Part shown: positions 10,418 through 32,778 of the stretch, piece by piece | How positions within the stretch are numbered: the stretch's first letter is position 1 | Layout of the letters: the number at the start of each line of letters is the position of its first letter | Origin: Desulfoscipio sp. XC116 | Lineage (GTDB): Bacteria; Bacillota; Desulfotomaculia; Desulfotomaculales; Desulfallaceae | Assembly: GCF_039851975.1 (NCBI RefSeq) | Contig: NZ_CP156660.1 | Span: forward strand, 2,485,035-2,549,034 | Direction: 5' to 3' | Length of the DNA: 64,000 nt | Notes under the pieces: model-generated | Told to the model about the DNA's origin: nothing | Databases searched by the model: none | The model's input: only the letters and a program-made list of their open reading frames with translations | Program-made: the position numbers and the translations under genes

Positions 10418-10458
10418 ATAGACCCCTGCCTGTTCATATTAAAAGGGCAGGGGTCTAT
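10418..10458. terminator. Hairpin terminator, probably bidirectional
   Basis: The 13-bp arms ATAGACCCCTGCC / GGCAGGGGTCTAT enclose a 15-base loop, 50 bp downstream of the 55-aa gene on the minus strand. A short T-rich tract follows in the minus direction. Confidence 0.65.
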
Positions 10459-10507: not shown

Positions 10508-10675
10508 TTACTTAGCCGGGCGCAGCGCAATCACTTTTTTATGCTCTTTGCATCCGCCATACCTATCAACAGAATGCTCTTCTTTAAGCAAGTCGGCGCG
10601 CAGCATTTCTGCTTCGTATAGTGGTGTTTCCAAGTTTTTCTCCATCCATCTGGTCAGCCTGTCAAAAGTTTTCAT
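10508..10675 (-). CDS. Small hypothetical protein, 55 aa, N-terminus shared with the 11148 product
   Basis: The start ATG 10675 has TGAGGTG 8 bases upstream and the stop is at 10508-10510. Residues 10-31 (WMEKNLETPLYEAEMLRADLL) match the N-terminal part of the divergently encoded 68-aa protein starting at 11148 (WMVKNFEEPLLQAEIYRADLL), a shared module of about 21 residues with roughly 60% identity. The rest is polar, without a membrane helix, and ends in a basic tail. The conserved pattern in two neighbouring small genes strongly supports translation. Function is unknown. Confidence 0.65.
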   Translation of the reverse strand: MKTFDRLTRWMEKNLETPLYEAEMLRADLLKEEHSVDRYGGCKEHKKVIALRPAK

Positions 10676-11147
10676 ACTAAACACCTCACGTTATATTGGA
10701 AATCATTTGTTATATTTAATTGTTATTTTACTCCCACTCACACAAGACCAAAATCTTTTACCGCCGAATTACCATAATATCAAGGCGAAAGTTTCACAAA
10801 CCCATTAATCATCATTATAGCCATTTATCTTTGTATTAATCATGGTTTTATACCGGCCGGCACGTTTATCAGCCTGGCTTTAATTGACTATTTATAGAAC
10901 ATAGCATTAGCTATCTTCCTGCTCAATATGAGGCAGGTAAGCTGTTTCATATAAGCACAGGCCGGTTAAACCATCCGACCTGTACAGATAAAAGTCACCG
11001 GTGATGTTAAATTAGTCAAATGCGAATGTCCGGCCAGCAACGAAATCCTTTATTTTAGCGGACTGCGGTATAAGATGGTCATGGCACGCACTTTGCACAT
11101 TAATTTACATTAGAAAAAAGTTATCTTTGTCAAGGAGGCTCCGGGCC
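10676..11147. other. Divergent intergenic region with sigma-54 promoter and dyad
   Basis: This 470-bp spacer between two related small genes carries a dyad at about 10958-10984 (ACAGG.CGG with its complement CCG.CCTGT) and a -24/-12 promoter at 11082-11097. The dyad is about 100 bp upstream of the promoter, where sigma-54 activators usually bind. Confidence 0.6.
11082..11097 (+). promoter_or_regulatory. Sigma-54 (-24/-12) promoter
   Basis: TGGCACGCACTTTGCA matches the consensus TGGCACG-N4-TTGCA exactly in both boxes, with GG-N10-GC spacing. The start codon of the 68-aa membrane protein gene lies 51 bp downstream. Confidence 0.88.
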
Positions 11148-11354
11148 ATGAAAAAAAACGCTAATTTATATTCCTGGATGGTTAAAAACTTTGAAGAACC
11201 TTTACTTCAGGCTGAAATATACAGAGCGGACCTTTTGAAATGTGCTGACAACGAAAATTGTTCCCTTAGTTTGATTGCCGTATTAGCAGCATTAGTCATG
11301 CCTATAATAATAGTGGCAGCCAGTATGTTAAAGATAAAATACCCTTTTTTATAA
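11148..11354 (+). CDS. Small membrane protein, 68 aa
   Basis: ATG 11148 is chosen because AAGGAGG lies 10 bases upstream. The N-terminal half carries the same WMxKNxExPLxxAExxRADLL module as the 55-aa protein encoded at 10508-10675. The C-terminal half is one membrane helix (about residues 43-62), so the module probably sits at the cytoplasmic membrane. It is the first gene behind a perfect sigma-54 promoter, with the 218-aa hypothetical gene 30 bp downstream. It may be a small regulatory or partner subunit; no function is known. Confidence 0.75.
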   Translation: MKKNANLYSWMVKNFEEPLLQAEIYRADLLKCADNENCSLSLIAVLAALVMPIIIVAASMLKIKYPFL

Positions 11355-11384: not shown

Positions 11385-12041
11385 ATGACTGATAGGGAAT
11401 TCGTTTCTACATTTGTTCAACAAAAGGAACGCTTTATCAGCCAAAACATGCCCAGGGGCATCAACTGCAAAACCCTGGACCTGTTTGAAAGCTGGTTAAT
11501 GGAACGTCTTTCATCAGCCAAAGGCGAAAAATCAGCACCAGTATCCCCCAAAACAGAACTGCCTGCTCTGCTGGACCAGGCTATCGAAAAGGCTGACACT
11601 CTACTGCAAAAGAAAGATATTCGTATTAAACGTATTTCTTTAAACGTACTGGGTAATAAATCAAAGACGCGCTGCATCAAGGTTTACCCATTTGATAATC
11701 TTTATTACCGCATATGTAAAACTTCCCCCCGCAAGGGTAAACATAAAGGTGAAAATTTGATCGCTATTGAGCTGATAATGGATGGCAATAAAAATAATAT
11801 TTTTGTTCCCATGGCCGCTGAAAAGGATAATATAGAAAATCAATTAGGCATAGCTGTGGAAAGAGAAAGGCCATCTATTGAGGCAACCGGCAAATACAGG
11901 CTTAAAGTACTGTTTAATCTTGATGAAAAGAGCAAGCAAGAAATAGCCGGGCAACTTGGCATTGCCCTGGCCGATTTCGTTTGTATTACCAACCGCTATT
12001 TACAAAAAATTAAACGTTTTAGTAAAAGTAATCATCCATAA
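11385..12041 (+). CDS. Hypothetical protein, second gene of a sigma-54 transcription unit
   Basis: This is a 218-aa soluble protein with GGAGG just before ATG 11385. I recognise no family. An acidic N-terminal part, a central segment with many Lys/Arg (about residues 70-135) and a C-terminal part reading GKYRLKVLFNLDEKSK can be seen. It is the second gene behind the -24/-12 promoter at 11082. Its last 23 bases overlap the convergent CBS protein gene, so the two loci face each other tightly. Confidence 0.7.
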   Translation: MTDREFVSTFVQQKERFISQNMPRGINCKTLDLFESWLMERLSSAKGEKSAPVSPKTELPALLDQAIEKADTLLQKKDIRIKRISLNVLGNKSKTRCIKVYPFDNLYYRICKTSPRKGKHKGENLIAIELIMDGNKNNIFVPMAAEKDNIENQLGIAVERERPSIEATGKYRLKVLFNLDEKSKQEIAGQLGIALADFVCITNRYLQKIKRFSKSNHP

Positions 12042-12507
12042 CCGTGAAAACATCCATAGTGCGTACAATGCCCACCGGTTTTCCTTGTCTCAGCACAGGC
12101 ATCGAATTAACCCCGTGCTTTAAGAGGGCCAGGGCCACATCCAAAACCGGAGCCTGATAATCTACAGTAAATAACGCCAAAGGACGCATTACATCCTTAA
12201 CTCTTATTTTAGTTTCTTTACGCATAGCATTAATATAATACCAGCCCCAGGATTCCGCTTTAATTTGCGGGTCATTATCCAATTCTTTAAGACCCGCGGC
12301 CCTGAGCAATCCGCGCATGGTCAGCATGCCCACCAAATGGCCGCCCCTCCCCAGCACCAGCACACTCCGATGGCCGTGCCAAGCGCCTCCTTTACTGTGC
12401 ATGGCCTGTTGCAGCGCCTTGATCGCCTCATACAAGGTAGCATTTTCCTCAATTGTCACGTAGTCTTCGATAGGCAGCATGATATCAGCCGCGGCTTTAT
12501 TTTGCAA
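12019..12507 (-). CDS. CBS-pair protein 2
   Basis: A 162-aa protein made of two CBS domains with no other domain (MLPIEDYVTI... near residue 10, then RVKDVMRPLALFTVDY... near residue 97). CBS pairs bind adenosine nucleotides and act as energy or ligand sensors. It is a tandem paralogue of the protein encoded at 12522-13013, 14 bp upstream. Both lie at the end of the operon with an NtrC-type regulator and sensor kinase, so they may add a nucleotide signal to that pathway. That link is inferred from position only. Confidence 0.88.
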   Translation of the reverse strand: MQNKAAADIMLPIEDYVTIEENATLYEAIKALQQAMHSKGGAWHGHRSVLVLGRGGHLVGMLTMRGLLRAAGLKELDNDPQIKAESWGWYYINAMRKETKIRVKDVMRPLALFTVDYQAPVLDVALALLKHGVNSMPVLRQGKPVGIVRTMDVFTVMDDYFY

Positions 12508-12521
12508 AGCTATCCCCCCAC

Positions 12522-13013
12522 TTAATCCAGCATTTCACCTACCACCCAGAATAAATCAATGGGGCGCACCATACCTACCATACGTTCTTTATCCATAACA
12601 GGCAGCAGGTTAACGTTCTTCCTCACCATTATTTGCACCGCTTCAAAGACACTGCTTTGTCTATTTAAAGCAGCTGTCTTGATAGGACGCATGATATCCC
12701 TGACCACAATCTGCATGTTATCGTTAAACTTATTGGGGAAAAACAGACCTATAGCATCGCTCTTCAATAAATGATCCTGAATCTGCTGCAATTGGAAAGC
12801 GCGCAATAGCCCCCGCAAAGTCAGCAGCCCCACCAATTTATCCCTGCTGTTCAGCACCAGGGCCGCCTGGAACCCAAACCACGTTCCGTCCAAAATATGC
12901 ATAAACCGGCGCATCGTATCTATAGCCTCGGCAACAATATCAGCTTCGCGCACTACAGGGCAATCATTTATGGGTACCATGATCTGATCCACCGTCTTGT
13001 TATAATAAGACAA
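12522..13013 (-). CDS. CBS-pair protein 1
   Basis: A 163-aa stand-alone CBS pair, similar along its length to the next gene: both share IMxPIxD near the start, a VLxLxxRGLLRA segment in the middle and VxDxMRP before the second domain. It follows the NtrC-type regulator gene after only 14 bp, consistent with translation from the same mRNA. It has no transmembrane helix, so it should be cytosolic. Confidence 0.88.
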   Translation of the reverse strand: MSYYNKTVDQIMVPINDCPVVREADIVAEAIDTMRRFMHILDGTWFGFQAALVLNSRDKLVGLLTLRGLLRAFQLQQIQDHLLKSDAIGLFFPNKFNDNMQIVVRDIMRPIKTAALNRQSSVFEAVQIMVRKNVNLLPVMDKERMVGMVRPIDLFWVVGEMLD

Positions 13014-13027
13014 GGCAAAAACCCCCG

Positions 13028-14392
13028 TTAATCAATTATCCCCAATTCTTTCATCTTAGCGTAGAGAGAACTCCGGTTCATTTTTAACGCCTGGGCAGTG
13101 GCCGAGCGATTCCAATTATTATCTTCCAACGCCTTTAGAATAACTTCCCGCTCCACCTCGGCCACAATTTCCTTCAGGGAATCACCCTGCAGTTCACCCA
13201 GCCAGTCGATGCGCCGGCTGCTTTTCCTGAGGCCTAACGGCAAATCCTCCACCGTAAGCAGCGGTCCGCTGGACATTAGCACCGCCCGCTCACAAATATT
13301 TTTTAGCTCTCTGATATTGCCCGGCCAATCATAAGCTTCAAGCAGGTCTATAGCCTCCCGGGAAAAACCGGTTATCGTCTTGCCGTGTTCCAGGCTGGTA
13401 TTTTTTATGATATGTTCCACCAGGGCAGGGATGTCCTGTTTACGTTCCCTGAGAGGGGGCAGCATAATATCCACCACATTAATCCGGTAATATAGGTCTT
13501 CCCTGAATGTACCTTCCTCTATGGACCTTTCCAGGTCTTTATTGGTTGCAGCCACAATCCTTACGTCCACCTGAATGGTTTCGGTGCCGCCAACACGTTC
13601 AAATTCCCTTTCCTGAAGCACGCGCAGTATTTTAGCCTGAGTGCCCGCGGACATTTCACCGATTTCATCCAAAAATATGGTGCCCTTATGAGCTATTTCA
13701 AACTTGCCCTGTTTTGCCGCCACTGCTCCGGTAAAAGCACCCTTTTCATGTCCGAACAATTCACTCTCCAGTAAGTTTTCGGGAATGGACGCACAGTTGA
13801 TTTTTACAAAATTTCTGTCTTTGCGCACGCTGTTAAAATGAATGGCTCTGGCCACCAGTTCCTTCCCCGTACCGCTTTCTCCTCTGATTAATACCGTCGC
13901 ATTACTGTTGGCCACCCGCCCGATGGTCTTATAAATACTTTGCATGGCCGGTGACAGACCGATCATCATGTTTTCATTTATATCGCCTTGGCAGTCACTT
14001 TGGTTATGCCTGAAACGGCGAATCATTTCCCTCACTTCCACCGCTTTTCCGAGAGCATCCAATACCTCATTAACTTTAAGCGGTTTCATGAGATAGTCAA
14101 AGGCGCCCAGCTTCATGGCCTCAATGGTGGTTTCCGTGGAACCGTAGGCAGTCATGATAATCACCGGCACGTTCCGGCCCCGCTGATTGATAATTTCCAG
14201 TGCCCGGATGCCGTTCATTTCCGGCATTTTAATATCCAGCAGTACCGCGTCCGGATCCAGGCGATCAATCAATTCCAAGCCTTCAAGCCCATTGGAAGCG
14301 CATTCCACCCGGTAGCCGCTGTCCTCCAGTATATCGCGCAGAGCTTCCTGCACACTCCGCTCATCATCAACAACCAGAACTAATTTTGACAA
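13028..14392 (-). CDS. NtrC-type sigma-54-dependent response regulator
   Basis: The 454-aa protein has a receiver domain (residues 1-120, phospho-acceptor in DAVLLDIKMP near residue 53), an AAA+ sigma-54 interaction domain (Walker A GESGTGKE near 170, GAFTGA near 218) and a C-terminal Fis-type helix-turn-helix. The intact GAFTGA loop means it can contact sigma-54. It is followed by two CBS genes and preceded by its kinase gene with 2 bp between. Likely targets are the sigma-54 promoters at 11082 and 17823, which flank the locus; this is an inference from proximity. Confidence 0.93.
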   Translation of the reverse strand: MSKLVLVVDDERSVQEALRDILEDSGYRVECASNGLEGLELIDRLDPDAVLLDIKMPEMNGIRALEIINQRGRNVPVIIMTAYGSTETTIEAMKLGAFDYLMKPLKVNEVLDALGKAVEVREMIRRFRHNQSDCQGDINENMMIGLSPAMQSIYKTIGRVANSNATVLIRGESGTGKELVARAIHFNSVRKDRNFVKINCASIPENLLESELFGHEKGAFTGAVAAKQGKFEIAHKGTIFLDEIGEMSAGTQAKILRVLQEREFERVGGTETIQVDVRIVAATNKDLERSIEEGTFREDLYYRINVVDIMLPPLRERKQDIPALVEHIIKNTSLEHGKTITGFSREAIDLLEAYDWPGNIRELKNICERAVLMSSGPLLTVEDLPLGLRKSSRRIDWLGELQGDSLKEIVAEVEREVILKALEDNNWNRSATAQALKMNRSSLYAKMKELGIID

Positions 14393-14394
14393 CT

Positions 14395-16215
14395 TTAGGC
14401 TACCTCCTTGGTCTTTAAATAAAATATCAACTCAGTCCCTTTCCCAACCTCACTTTCCACTTCAATATGACCGCCGTGCACCTGGATAATTTCATGGACA
14501 ATGGCCAGCCCCAATCCCGTGCCCTTGGGACGGGTGGAGAAAAACGGGTCGAACAAGTGTCCCAAATGTTCACGAGGAATACCCCGCCCGGTATCTTTTA
14601 TGGACACAAAAACTTCCTCGGCATCCCCATAATACCCGGTAGACACTGTTATAGTACCGGACTCAGGCATTGACTGCAGGGCATTGAATAGAATATTGGC
14701 CAATACCCGCTCAATTTGCTCGGGATCTATCCACACCTGTGGAATACCGTCCTTAAGGTTCCTAATCAAACTGAATTTACCCTGGTGTATTTCATTAAAA
14801 AAACCCAACACATCTTCAACAAGTACATTAATATCCTTTTGTACAAACTTGGCCTCACCAGGCTTGGCAAAATAAAGCAATTGATCTACAATAGCATCCA
14901 GCCTGGACACTTCCCGCTGCATAGTGGCCAGGGCCCGCTGATTGGGCTCATGCCGGTTTTGCCAGTGCTGAATATACATGCTGATGGAAGTCAGCGGATT
15001 TCTGATTTCATGGGCCACGCCGGTAACCAGTTTACCAAGTGACGCCAGGCGTTCCTGGCGATGAGCTTTTTCCCTGAGTCTGAGCCGCTCGGTGATATCG
15101 CGGCACAGCAGTACGACTCCCAACATACTCCCCCGGATGCTTTTTAACAGTGAAGTGCTGATCAATAATTCCAACGTATTATGATTACCGTTATTGGCCC
15201 AGGAGATATGCAGATCTTTAAAATTATTTTTATCCTCCATAGTTCTGCCAATCAATTCCGCAAATGGGGACCCGGTGGGGAGTAATTCAAGATAATCCAT
15301 ATCCCGGCAGTCTTCGGGCAATCCCATTAACTTGACCGCCATTTTGTTGGCAATCATCACCCGGCCATGTACGTCAACCACCAAAATGGCATCGTCGATG
15401 GTGGCCAGCATGGTTTCATTGTATAAATTTAAATCAGATATTTTATGGGCAAAGCCGTTAATGGCATCCACTATTTCACCAAGCTCGCCGGGCGCTGTCG
15501 GCAGGGTTTGATTCAAGTCACTCTCCAGTAATTTAACCCCGTTTTTAATATTTTCCACCTGGCTCACCAATTGCCGGAAAAGCAACACGGCTCCGGAAAT
15601 GCCGGTAATAATTACAAAAGAAATTATTGAGTAAACGGTATATTCAATTTCCTTGCGCTTGCTGTAATAACTGGTTTCTCCCAGGTATTCGGCTGATCTG
15701 ATCACCCCTTCAACACGCCCGTTCCTGGTAAAAGGTTTATAAACCTCCACCACGCCGCCCTCTTCTTCACCCAGGCTTTGGGTTAAAGCGTTTTTATTTT
15801 CTAAAACGACATCAAATGCTTTTTTCCGCCGCAGGGAATAGTTTTCCCCAAAACGCTGGGTACCGTCAAAAAAAATATCCAAGTCCTTATAATAAAGACC
15901 GATATGCACTTCAGGGTACTCGCGGTGCACCTTGCCGATCGCTTCATTCAGATACTCTCCCATAACCAGCATCTGCTCTTGTTTGCTTTTACTTTCCGCA
16001 TGACGACCGTCCAGGTAATCATACAGACTGCCGTCCAGGTTTTGGTCAAACAGGTAAGCAGCCTGGTTAAGACGTGCCTTCTGGTGTTCCAGAAGAGAAA
16101 GCTCACTGTTGCTGATAATACTCATCAGGTATACCGTCAGTAGCACAGTGAGAACGAGCAGCAGCGATACAAATATTAAAATACGATTGCCGAAATACAC
16201 ATTTTTCTCGGTCAT
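14395..16215 (-). CDS. Membrane sensor histidine kinase
   Basis: The frame opens at 16245, but ATG 16215 (MTEKNVYFGNR) has a GAGG site and gives a normal N-terminus (606 aa). It has one membrane helix near residues 10-35, an extracellular sensor region of about 150 residues, and a second helix near residues 190-215. A HAMP-like linker, a PAS domain (about 265-380), a HisKA domain with VAHEIRNPLTS and an ATPase domain with the G boxes (DTGRGIP, GTGLGLAI) follow. It phosphorylates the regulator encoded 2 bp downstream. The ligand sensed outside the cell is unknown; association with a TauE/SafE permease suggests a sulfur compound or organic anion, which is an inference. Confidence 0.92.
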   Translation of the reverse strand: MTEKNVYFGNRILIFVSLLLVLTVLLTVYLMSIISNSELSLLEHQKARLNQAAYLFDQNLDGSLYDYLDGRHAESKSKQEQMLVMGEYLNEAIGKVHREYPEVHIGLYYKDLDIFFDGTQRFGENYSLRRKKAFDVVLENKNALTQSLGEEEGGVVEVYKPFTRNGRVEGVIRSAEYLGETSYYSKRKEIEYTVYSIISFVIITGISGAVLLFRQLVSQVENIKNGVKLLESDLNQTLPTAPGELGEIVDAINGFAHKISDLNLYNETMLATIDDAILVVDVHGRVMIANKMAVKLMGLPEDCRDMDYLELLPTGSPFAELIGRTMEDKNNFKDLHISWANNGNHNTLELLISTSLLKSIRGSMLGVVLLCRDITERLRLREKAHRQERLASLGKLVTGVAHEIRNPLTSISMYIQHWQNRHEPNQRALATMQREVSRLDAIVDQLLYFAKPGEAKFVQKDINVLVEDVLGFFNEIHQGKFSLIRNLKDGIPQVWIDPEQIERVLANILFNALQSMPESGTITVSTGYYGDAEEVFVSIKDTGRGIPREHLGHLFDPFFSTRPKGTGLGLAIVHEIIQVHGGHIEVESEVGKGTELIFYLKTKEVA

Positions 16216-16291
16216 AAAAAGGCCTCGCTGATAAATATTTTGCATCCTTAGCCATATTATAATGATTAACCGCGCTCATTGAAACCATTAA

Positions 16292-16360: not shown

Positions 16361-17467
16361 TCAACCGGACACCTGCTGACCGCTATGCACTTCATTCCGG
16401 GCGGCCTGACCCGCCCGCCGGTAAGCAAGGAACATCCAGTAAAAGATAACCGCAACGCCCACCACGCCGCTGCCGTATAAGAATACACTGCTCAGAAGAT
16501 TAACGGTATCATAGGTACCGGCGCTCATGGTCATTTTACCCATATCGGCCAGGTAAACAGGTACCATGGCCAGCCTGCTCAGGGCCACTAAAGCTATAAT
16601 AGATACCATAACCATCCTTATCTGGGCCCCGCGTACCACCCGGGTGCCGATGGCCCCCAGGTTGACCCCGATCAGCGAGCCAACGTACAACAGCAAGGCT
16701 ATCCGCAAATCAACCAGGCCATGCAGCGAATAAAGAAATGCCCCCTGCGCCCCGGAAAATATAGCTAAAAAAAGCTCTGTACCGGCGGCCACATAGGTAG
16801 GTATGCCCAGCAGGTAGATCATGGCCGGAACGCCTACAAAACCACCCACGCCGATAGTACCGGCCAGAAAACCCGTCGCAAAGCCGACAAGAAGGGCCAG
16901 CCACAATGATGTGCGGACACCGGCTACCTTGAAATTGATCATGGGCGGGAGGTTCAGTTTTTGAATTTTTTCGGCCAGCGTAAGAGCTGCCTGCCCCCCG
17001 GCACCGGACGCGGTTTTTCGTTGTCTTAGAATATCCCGGGTCATAAAAATCGTTACCCAGGTAAGTATAATTACAAACATAATACTGATATACAGATTGG
17101 AGCCTGATTCACCCATTTTGGCCAGCACCCCTCTGTTTGCCGATACGGCCACTTCAACTCCGGCAAACAGGGCAAGAAACATCACCAGGCCCATGCGCAT
17201 ATCCACGTTGCCAAATTCACTGTGTTTCTTGGACCCCATGATAGCCTTGCCAAATTTATGTGTAATATTAGCGGCTACCGCCATAATTCCGGGAATACCC
17301 AGACTCATCATGGCCGGAGTCATAATGAATGCACCTCCGCTGCCCATGAAACCGCTCAGAACCCCCCCCACCAAGCCAATGCCAAACAGGGAAAAGGCGA
17401 TTTTAGGCGTAATAGCAATAAATTTTATTGCTTCCACCGCCGCCGGAATTTCTACAGCACCTGCCAT
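16361..17467 (-). CDS. TauE/SafE family permease
   Basis: The 368-aa protein has about eight to ten membrane helices and two glycine-rich repeats typical of the family (GGVLSGFMGSGGAFIMTP near residue 36 and TGFLAGTIGVGGFVGVP near residue 200). Members export or import sulfite, sulfonates or organosulfur anions. It follows a two-helix membrane protein gene with only 4 bp between, and lies behind a sigma-54 promoter. In a sulfate-reducing or sulfonate-using anaerobe, export of sulfite or uptake of a sulfonate would fit, but the substrate is not visible in the sequence. Confidence 0.9.
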   Translation of the reverse strand: MAGAVEIPAAVEAIKFIAITPKIAFSLFGIGLVGGVLSGFMGSGGAFIMTPAMMSLGIPGIMAVAANITHKFGKAIMGSKKHSEFGNVDMRMGLVMFLALFAGVEVAVSANRGVLAKMGESGSNLYISIMFVIILTWVTIFMTRDILRQRKTASGAGGQAALTLAEKIQKLNLPPMINFKVAGVRTSLWLALLVGFATGFLAGTIGVGGFVGVPAMIYLLGIPTYVAAGTELFLAIFSGAQGAFLYSLHGLVDLRIALLLYVGSLIGVNLGAIGTRVVRGAQIRMVMVSIIALVALSRLAMVPVYLADMGKMTMSAGTYDTVNLLSSVFLYGSGVVGVAVIFYWMFLAYRRAGQAARNEVHSGQQVSG

Positions 17468-17471
17468 TTTA

Positions 17472-17741
17472 TCACTCCTCTCTTAACTCCTGGGATTTTA
17501 ATCTTTCCTGCAAGGTGTATTTAAGGATGTTGGAAACCGCCGTTCCGTATAGAAATGCCACGACGACTACCAGGACCATGCATAAAGCCGGTGCAGCATA
17601 GCTTTCGCTCTTTAAAATCTTAACCAACTGGTCGGTATTGGTGAAAACATAAAAGTAAATAATTGCCGACAACACCAAACAAATAACAGCGGAAACCATA
17701 GCCTTTCCTTTACCTTGGGCTGTATGGGATGCCACAGACAT
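17472..17741 (-). CDS. Small two-helix membrane protein, partner of the permease
   Basis: An 89-aa protein with two membrane helices (about residues 13-33 and 49-72) and a charged C-terminus. It is the first gene after the sigma-54 promoter at 17823-17837, and its stop lies 4 bp from the permease start, so the two are almost certainly translationally linked. AGGAGG precedes the ATG. It could be a small subunit or chaperone of the permease. I do not recognise a named family. Confidence 0.75.
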   Translation of the reverse strand: MSVASHTAQGKGKAMVSAVICLVLSAIIYFYVFTNTDQLVKILKSESYAAPALCMVLVVVVAFLYGTAVSNILKYTLQERLKSQELREE

Positions 17742-17822
17742 TACCTCCTTTTAACTTTAAAAAATTGGCAAAATCCCGAAAACCCCGCCTACACCTCCCT
17801 GTTTGTTTTTGTAACTTAAGGT

Positions 17823-17837
17823 GCAAACGAAGTGCCA
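17823..17837 (-). promoter_or_regulatory. Sigma-54 (-24/-12) promoter of the permease operon
   Basis: On the minus strand the sequence is TGGCACTTCGTTTGC: a perfect TGGCAC -24 box and TTGC -12 box with GG-N10-GC spacing, 81 bp before the start of the two-helix protein gene. Confidence 0.85.
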
Positions 17838-32325: not shown

Positions 32326-32778
32326 GTACAATCACTCCTTTCATCATATCGCCATATAACCCGTTATTTAGAATGTCTTTTATTTCTCAATAAGCAATTT
32401 ACATGCCAGCTCCCAATATATTAAATAACTCCATTATTACCGCTCTTTTATTTAATTAAGCGACAAAAGAAATACCATGGTTATCTCAAATTGATATAAA
32501 AGAATATTATTCCTTAATACAATAATGAAAGTCTCATTTTGACATGCATATCATTTTGACATAATCTTTTTTACGGTGCCGTCTTTAACGGCACGATGTC
32601 TAAATAAATTTAAAAGACAACTGTAATCTTATCAAAGATAAACGGTTGCCTTTTAATTTTATCATGAACAAGCATGAAATTATTATGTTAATACCACCGG
32701 TTTAACTTTATCCTGCTAATACATCCGGGATTTGTTCAGCTTAAGCGAGTTGGCAAAGATTTGCATTCAATTGATTAA
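32326..32778. other. Intergenic region with sigma-54 promoter and hairpins
   Basis: Besides the -24/-12 element at 32394-32408, it holds a short hairpin near 32575-32594 (GTGCCGT / ACGGCAC) and a longer inverted repeat near 32612-32657 with arms AAAAGACAAC / GTTGCCTTTT. The longer one probably terminates the leftward acyl-CoA ligase transcript. Confidence 0.6.
32394..32408 (-). promoter_or_regulatory. Sigma-54 (-24/-12) promoter of the 2-oxoacid oxidoreductase operon
   Basis: On the minus strand TGGCATGTAAATTGC; one mismatch to TGGCAC, exact GG-N10-GC spacing, 69 bp before the ferredoxin subunit start. Confidence 0.75.

Follow-up and report, generated by a model that had tools for sequence, protein, structure and literature searches.

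A module of about 25 residues, with the consensus W-M-E-x-x-L-E-E-P-F-x-x-A-E-x-x-R-A-E, is a single family that occurs in three contexts, i.e., as the C-terminal tail of SulP permeases, in proteins with a one-helix membrane tail and in small polar/basic proteins. The membrane-tail and polar/basic forms are usually encoded beside a TauE/TSUP permease, together with an AtoS-like kinase, a sigma-54 activator, paired CBS proteins and a conserved partner protein, here called C2. To the reading that this module is portable and serves docking in the anion-permease systems of Gram-positive sulfate reducers, with C2 as its candidate receptor, we give slightly less than even confidence.

The two genes from which the module was defined, A and B, lie in the window, i.e., the whole stretch of 64,000 nucleotides of Desulfoscipio sp. 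XC116 DNA that was analyzed. Both small ORFs were confirmed on opposite strands, divergently oriented, where the initial annotation had placed them:

10418..10458, no strand assigned: perfect 13-bp inverted repeat found in the sequence, a probable terminator downstream of A
10508..10675, minus strand: A, soluble protein of 55 aa in which a basic tail follows the module (ORF listing, orthologue-pair dN/dS 0.127)
11148..11354, plus strand: B, 68-aa module protein with a predicted C-terminal membrane helix (ORF listing, predicted model)

A starts with the ATG at 10675 on the minus strand and its stop codon ends at 10508, while B extends from the ATG at 11148 on the plus strand to a stop codon ending at 11354. 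Putative ribosome-binding sites were seen by eye 9 nt 5' of the start of B (AAGGAGG) and 6 nt 5' of the start of A (GAGGTG). When the orthologues of Desulfotruncus arcticus and D. alcoholivorax were compared, the differences by codon position were 8/5/17 for A (56 codons) and 9/6/17 for B (62 codons), with dN/dS values of 0.127 and 0.250, respectively. Since the differences were mostly in third positions and dN/dS was low, A and B appear to be translated and under purifying selection, as judged from the sequences of this one species pair. On the same codon-position pattern and dN/dS values, again of one species pair only, non-coding ORFs were ruled out.

The segments WMEKNLETPLYEAEMLRADLL of A and WMVKNFEEPLLQAEIYRADLL of B were identical at 14 of 21 positions, and the ungapped local alignment of the two proteins was 31 residues long. 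Their Smith-Waterman score was 83, whereas 20,000 shuffles of B averaged 20.7 and did not exceed 46. As none of the 20,000 shuffles scored as high, likeness by chance was ruled out, and the common 21-residue module described initially was borne out. Searching with B recovered gene A in its own genome with E=6e-4, and the module HMM (about 32–37 positions) matched A with 5.7e-18 and B with 3.0e-15, both proteins being among the rows from which this model was built. The contrast between the two tails also held: that of A is polar/basic, and that of B contains a hydrophobic 17-mer with a mean Kyte-Doolittle value of 3.0. The AlphaFold2 model of B (14 sequences), which was weak with a mean pLDDT of 70.9, placed a helix at residues 3–32 followed by a helix at residues 36–64.

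With regard to known families, A had no Pfam match above cut-off. The only match of B, HcgF, reached 14 bits against a cut-off of 25 and was discarded as chance. NCBIfam and PHROGs gave nothing for A or B, and the best match in a PDB sequence profile search with the module profile A3 had an E-value of 0.048 across 13 residues. Homologues were found in related genomes. Among 16 genomes of the window's family (E<=1), the B query matched 9 and the A query 10. A 24-row profile, A1, matched 12 of the 16 at E<=1; at E<=0.01, it matched 30 of 113 genomes from the window's class. Profile A1 was built only from hits in the window's family, so its rows from that family match by construction; the matches in further families of the class (f4, f9, f10, f15, f16 and f18) are independent of that. 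The residues P and E of the module were invariant in all 46 aligned modules, and the residue A was conserved in at least 90%. The carriers of the module are Desulfotomaculum-type sulfate reducers, and dsrA was present in 28 of the 30 module genomes compared with 76 of 113 genomes of the class overall. A spread across Firmicutes, where a search had been suggested, did not emerge, as profile A3 (E<=0.001) found the module in 4 of 398 genomes sampled from the phylum, all of them from the window's class.

The stand-alone set comprised 56 unique proteins (E<1e-3, <200 aa), in which the module was constant and the sequence following it variable. A hydrophobic 17-mer above the cut was present in 22 tails, 4 were just under the cut, and 30 were polar, mostly basic. 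One membrane-tail and one polar-tail member occurred together in the window and in seven further stretches (L098–L101, L105, L127, L129). In four stretches (L119, L121, L124, L125), a separate module subfamily ends in ...WSK, and its gene is divergent from that of a large beta-propeller protein (PF09826 in the one member scanned). Further module genes that are not part of a TauE cassette lie beside hydrogenase-subunit-like genes (L126:7176-7325) and beside a DUF169-like gene (L134, L135), the neighbors being assigned by eye.

The third context was found in SulP permeases (PF00916 plus the STAS domain PF01740), some of which carry the module after STAS at their extreme C-terminus, i.e., in the last ~30 residues. 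A SulP hit was obtained in 25 genomes of the class, 22 of which had a full-length copy. The tail was present in 8 of these 22 genomes, matching the module with E-values from 8e-16 to 3e-11, and absent from 14. The window's genome has one SulP (C1:1877548), which carries the tail, and at three loci (L118, L130, L131) the tailed SulP gene is preceded, 0.37 kb upstream, by a small module gene. Stand-alone module genes were present in 8 of 8 genomes with a tailed SulP versus 3 of 14 with an untailed one (Fisher p=0.001, phylogeny ignored). Three genomes in which the module is present and SulP is untailed (G028, G029, G069) count against the docking reading. The likeness to the SLC26-like SulP proteins is that the module ends these permeases in 8 genomes of the class. 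The common part is the tail alone: by Pfam, the PF00916 permease domain and STAS are absent from A and B, and so the A/B-type small proteins differ from SulP in lacking both, while the other SulPs examined (14 of 22 genomes) lack the module. The SulP tail and the conserved partner C2 are additions to what the initial annotation contained.

In the window, a minus-strand operon consisting of a sigma-54 site, a small membrane protein, TauE, the AtoS-like kinase, an NtrC-type activator and two CBS proteins converges on the plus-strand unit formed by a sigma-54 site, B and C2:

11082..11097, plus strand: sigma-54 (-24/-12) promoter TGGCACGCACTTTGCA upstream of B-C2, exact consensus match
11385..12041, plus strand: C2, orphan protein of 218 aa encoded about 30 nt behind B; its C-terminal domain (residues about 55–215) is predicted to be type III chaperone/YbjN-like
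12019..12507, minus strand: CBS-pair protein 1 (PF00571, cluster C3)
12522..13013, minus strand: CBS-pair protein 2 (PF00571, cluster C3)
13028..14392, minus strand: sigma-54 activator, NtrC/AtoC-like response regulator (PF00072, PF00158, PF02954)
14395..16245, minus strand: AtoS-like sensor histidine kinase (NCBIfam NF008468)
16361..17467, minus strand: TauE/TSUP permease (PF01925, E 3.1e-34)
17472..17741, minus strand: C22-like small membrane protein (89 aa), first in the TauE operon, resembling the C22 protein of L105 by eye
17822..17837, minus strand: sigma-54 promoter TGGCACTTCGTTTGCA of the TauE operon, exact consensus match

Against the NCBIfam AtoSC equivalogs, the kinase scored 657.1 bits with a cut-off of 646 (AtoS), and the AtoC score of 534.5 was below its cut-off of 714. 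PF01925 also matches the permeases of L113 and L123. The C22-like protein had no Pfam match above cut-off and was left unclustered because its 89 aa are under the 90-aa clustering limit. Proteins of this kind (window 17472-17741; L136–L140, L155) are encoded directly before TauE and, in several genomes, directly behind a sigma-54 site; C22 is possibly a second TauE accessory protein.

ORF clustering of the window and 40 chosen stretches placed the kinase in 23 loci, C2 in 22, CBS proteins and the activator in 21 each, TauE-5 in 16 and a second TauE type in 6. When the genome contigs were searched with the C2 profile (A2), 35 loci were obtained, among them loci of Desulfoscipio geothermicus, Desulfallas, Desulfotruncus, Desulfocucumis, Desulfofundulus, Desulfovirgula and Desulfotomaculum copahuensis. 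A module gene lay within 10 kb in 26 of these 35 loci at E<=0.01 (27 if L162, at 0.06, is counted), nearly always beside TauE, the AtoS-like kinase, the sigma-54 activator and CBS genes, so that homologues near NtrC-type regulators or TauE genes, which the initial annotation had named as support, were indeed found. Since the module gene is part of the cassette in 26 of 35 C2-anchored loci, the proposed new family of small proteins, for which Pfam, NCBIfam, PHROGs and PDB offer no usable match, is supported by sequence comparison; with the regulatory or adaptor role proposed for it, the data are compatible.

The nine C2 loci without a module gene count against the docking reading. No module gene was detected within 10 kb at L143, L149, L157, L158, L161, L163, L167 and L169, and at the module-negative loci a TM-type model and an unfiltered search gave weak candidates only (E-values: L163 0.014, L162 0.017, L161 0.057, L158 0.5). 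Across the 113 genomes of the class, module and C2 occurred together in 27, the module only in 3 (G031, G094, G111), C2 only in 4 (G002, G066, G067, G071) and neither in 79. The p-value of this co-occurrence, 1e-18, is inflated by relatedness, and both groups of exceptions count against docking. In the genus of the window, module and C2 are both present in G000, G013 and G015 and both absent from G010, G011, G012 and G014. In the sample of 398 genomes from the phylum, C2 was found in 5, all in the window's class. Four records titled as Armatimonadetes or Actinobacteria MAGs (L149, L150, L164, L165) carry the cassette and are probably mistitled sulfate-reducer bins.

Seen from the module, 23 of 38 stretches with a stand-alone gene contained TauE (one of them, L150, seen via its named copy), 3 contained SulP, 11 contained neither, and in 1 the contig was too short. 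The 11 stretches without TauE or SulP again count against the docking reading; in three of them (L121, L124, L125) a PF03601-type permease cluster (one member scanned) lies ~4 kb away. In L120, L147 and L155, TauE (or TauE, CBS, CBS) is followed by the module gene and then C2 on a single strand, with the membrane-tail gene inside the TauE operon. In a second cassette type (L113:10624-11139; C9 cluster, six stretches), a different TauE is accompanied by a membrane protein of ~165 aa that has no Pfam match, a paralogue of C2, a CBS protein and a module protein of the membrane-tail kind. Both cassette types occur in the genome of the window, one near 1.25 Mb of C1 and one in the window.

The proximity to TauE could also mean that the membrane-tail proteins are accessory subunits that structurally stabilize or assemble TauE, with the module on the cytoplasmic face of the permease and no separate receptor. 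TM-type module genes do adjoin TauE: the one in L123 is 215 nt upstream of it, and those in L127, L129, L154 and L164 share its cassette. SulP, moreover, bears the module itself. However, 34 of the 56 stand-alone proteins are under the hydrophobicity cut, and 30 of these clearly have no membrane tail; B is paired in a unit with C2 rather than TauE in the window, and module-only loci without TauE exist. An accessory subunit is an unlikely explanation.

The perfect sigma-54 promoter noted initially before B was confirmed as an exact match to TGGCAYN5TTGCW at 11082-11097, and the window contains only two other exact matches. The third exact site in the window is TGGCATGTAAATTGCT at 32393-32408 on the minus strand. 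Other genes were tested for TGGCAC-N5-TTGC at 9 or 10 of 10 positions. All seven B-type genes heading a unit with C2 (window, L098–L101, L103, L105) have a site just upstream, compared with 12 of the 374 remaining genes of these stretches. Among A-type genes, 0 of 5 had a 9/10 site, and no sigma-54 promoter was found for A. At 17 of 35 named loci, the 600 nt upstream of either TauE or the small membrane gene preceding it contained a site. Since sigma-54 sites precede both, the sequences suggest that TauE and B-C2 are co-induced by the cassette's own activator. On the upstream side of A, the four related genomes of L098–L101 contain the conserved clusters C12 and C13 (some also C21), which by eye resemble acyl-CoA carboxylase, HMG-CoA lyase and enoyl-CoA hydratase genes, and in L138–L140 (named copies) 9/10 sigma-54 sites lie just past A, on the C12/C13 side.

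C2 proteins are ~215 aa in size. At E<=0.05, no Pfam family matched more than a single one of 36 members, and no member matched the YbjN or class I type III chaperone families at this threshold. The model of C2 (36 rows) was confident, with a pLDDT of 86 and a pTM of 0.71. Its top Foldseek match in the PDB was ExsC in the ExsC-ExsE complex (E 1.3e-3, prob 1.00), followed by YbjN/AmyR and other type III chaperones, none at E<=0.001. In a second structure comparison, Bacillus 2a8e (Z 8.9), SycT (Z 8.9), Spa15 (Z 8.7) and YbjN (Z 7.3) were matched, and with residues 55-215 many chaperones and YbjN proteins scored Z 6-8.5 and KH RNA-binding domains about Z 5. Z-scores below or near 8 can reflect common arrangements, and the fold match is borderline. 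The predicted order of elements (helix 56-75, strands 81-84, 95-100, 107-113 and 125-131, helices 136-154, a short strand at about 159-160, strand 172-178, helix 184-215) agrees with the topology of DR1245, YbjN and type III chaperones as given in the part of PMC3575483 consulted, save for the extra short strand. DR1245, a YbjN-type protein, binds a partner protein according to the same part of that paper. C2 may work like a peptide-binding chaperone, on the basis of a modeled fold resemblance rather than family membership. What C2 has in common with ExsC-ExsE, class I type III chaperones, YbjN and DR1245 (PMC3575483, as far as consulted) is, besides the predicted fold of residues 55-215, the general theme of a small partner for a chaperone-like protein; it differs in having no Pfam sequence match, in coming from Gram-positive sulfate reducers and in an extra helical N-terminus of ~50 residues.

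The resemblance to ExsC also bears on a signaling role, in which the module proteins would regulate the kinase or activator, as an anti-activator or a permease-to-kinase link, and couple transporter occupancy to sigma-54 transcription, similar to ExsE/ExsC partner switching. At most loci the cassette includes a kinase and an activator gene, B lies under a sigma-54 site and ExsC is the closest fold match of C2. The fusion of the module to SulP speaks against this role: in the stretches fetched, the SulP genes have no kinase or activator neighbors except in L114. We consider such a role improbable. That C2 is instead an RNA-binding protein, with the small proteins as incidental neighbors or leader-type peptides, is very doubtful: although KH domains are among its fold matches and it has many invariant Arg/Lys/Gly residues (R109, R116, K117, G118, K136), the KH matches reach a Z of about 5 versus 7–9 for the chaperone-like group, and the module is not a leader peptide because it is conserved at the protein level (dN/dS 0.13-0.25) and recurs in SulP tails.

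Docking is the reading that we prefer. We infer that the module is an amphipathic helix that would bind a common cytoplasmic receptor. C2 is the best candidate for this receptor because of its position directly behind B and its predicted type III chaperone/YbjN-like fold, known members of which bind partner proteins. Upon firing of the kinase and activator, sigma-54 would turn on both the TauE operon and B-C2. The membrane-anchored copy, B, would then bring C2, and perhaps the CBS proteins as energy/nucleotide sensors, to the permease and thereby set its activity, while the soluble copy A, without a sigma-54 site, would compete with it for the receptor and so act as decoy or antagonist. SulP would have its docking tail built in. 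The net outcome would be control of anion-permease activity. Sulfur oxyanions as TauE substrate fit the distribution in sulfate reducers and the SulP link, and organic acids fit the AtoS-like kinase. A more far-reaching version, to which we assign a low probability, is a permease-docking code, in which the ~25-residue module is read by the chaperone-fold hub C2 in the form of a SulP tail, a TauE-side membrane peptide or a free decoy, so that two unrelated permease families would be under partner switching via one receptor, fed back to sigma-54 transcription, in Gram-positive sulfate reducers.

The entry of sulfate is the first step of sulfate respiration. A module linking SulP tails with small proteins of TauE cassettes predicts a shared regulator, for which C2 and the CBS pair are candidates. 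If true, this would be a clear case of a regulatory tail that occurs free-standing, in micro-proteins, as well as fused to a transporter. The findings suggest a previously undescribed plug-in part for anion-transport control. A literature search with partial coverage, which falls short of proving absence, surfaced no account of the module or C2, and the sections consulted of PMC5840216, PMC4641369 and PMC6615313 describe neither. The first of these, a survey of sulfate transporters in sulfate reducers, states in the part consulted that TSUP function predictions 'are not feasible'. In Desulfovibrio vulgaris, TSUP operons are controlled by sigma-54 (DVU0132-DVU0133; PMC4641369, in part). Their likeness to the present cassette is that, in a sulfate reducer, a sigma-54 activator governs operons with a TSUP permease; they differ in being proteobacterial, with no mention of a module protein, C2 or a CBS pair in the sections consulted. 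The sections consulted of PMC6615313 list the Clostridiales EBP regulons 'XhpR: hyp-memP' and 'XptB: sulT, hyp', of unassigned function, including Desulfotomaculum and Desulfosporosinus. As sigma-54 regulons that pair a hypothetical gene with a membrane or transporter gene, they are similar to the present cassette by description only, no sequences or module being given in those sections, and they may overlap with it.
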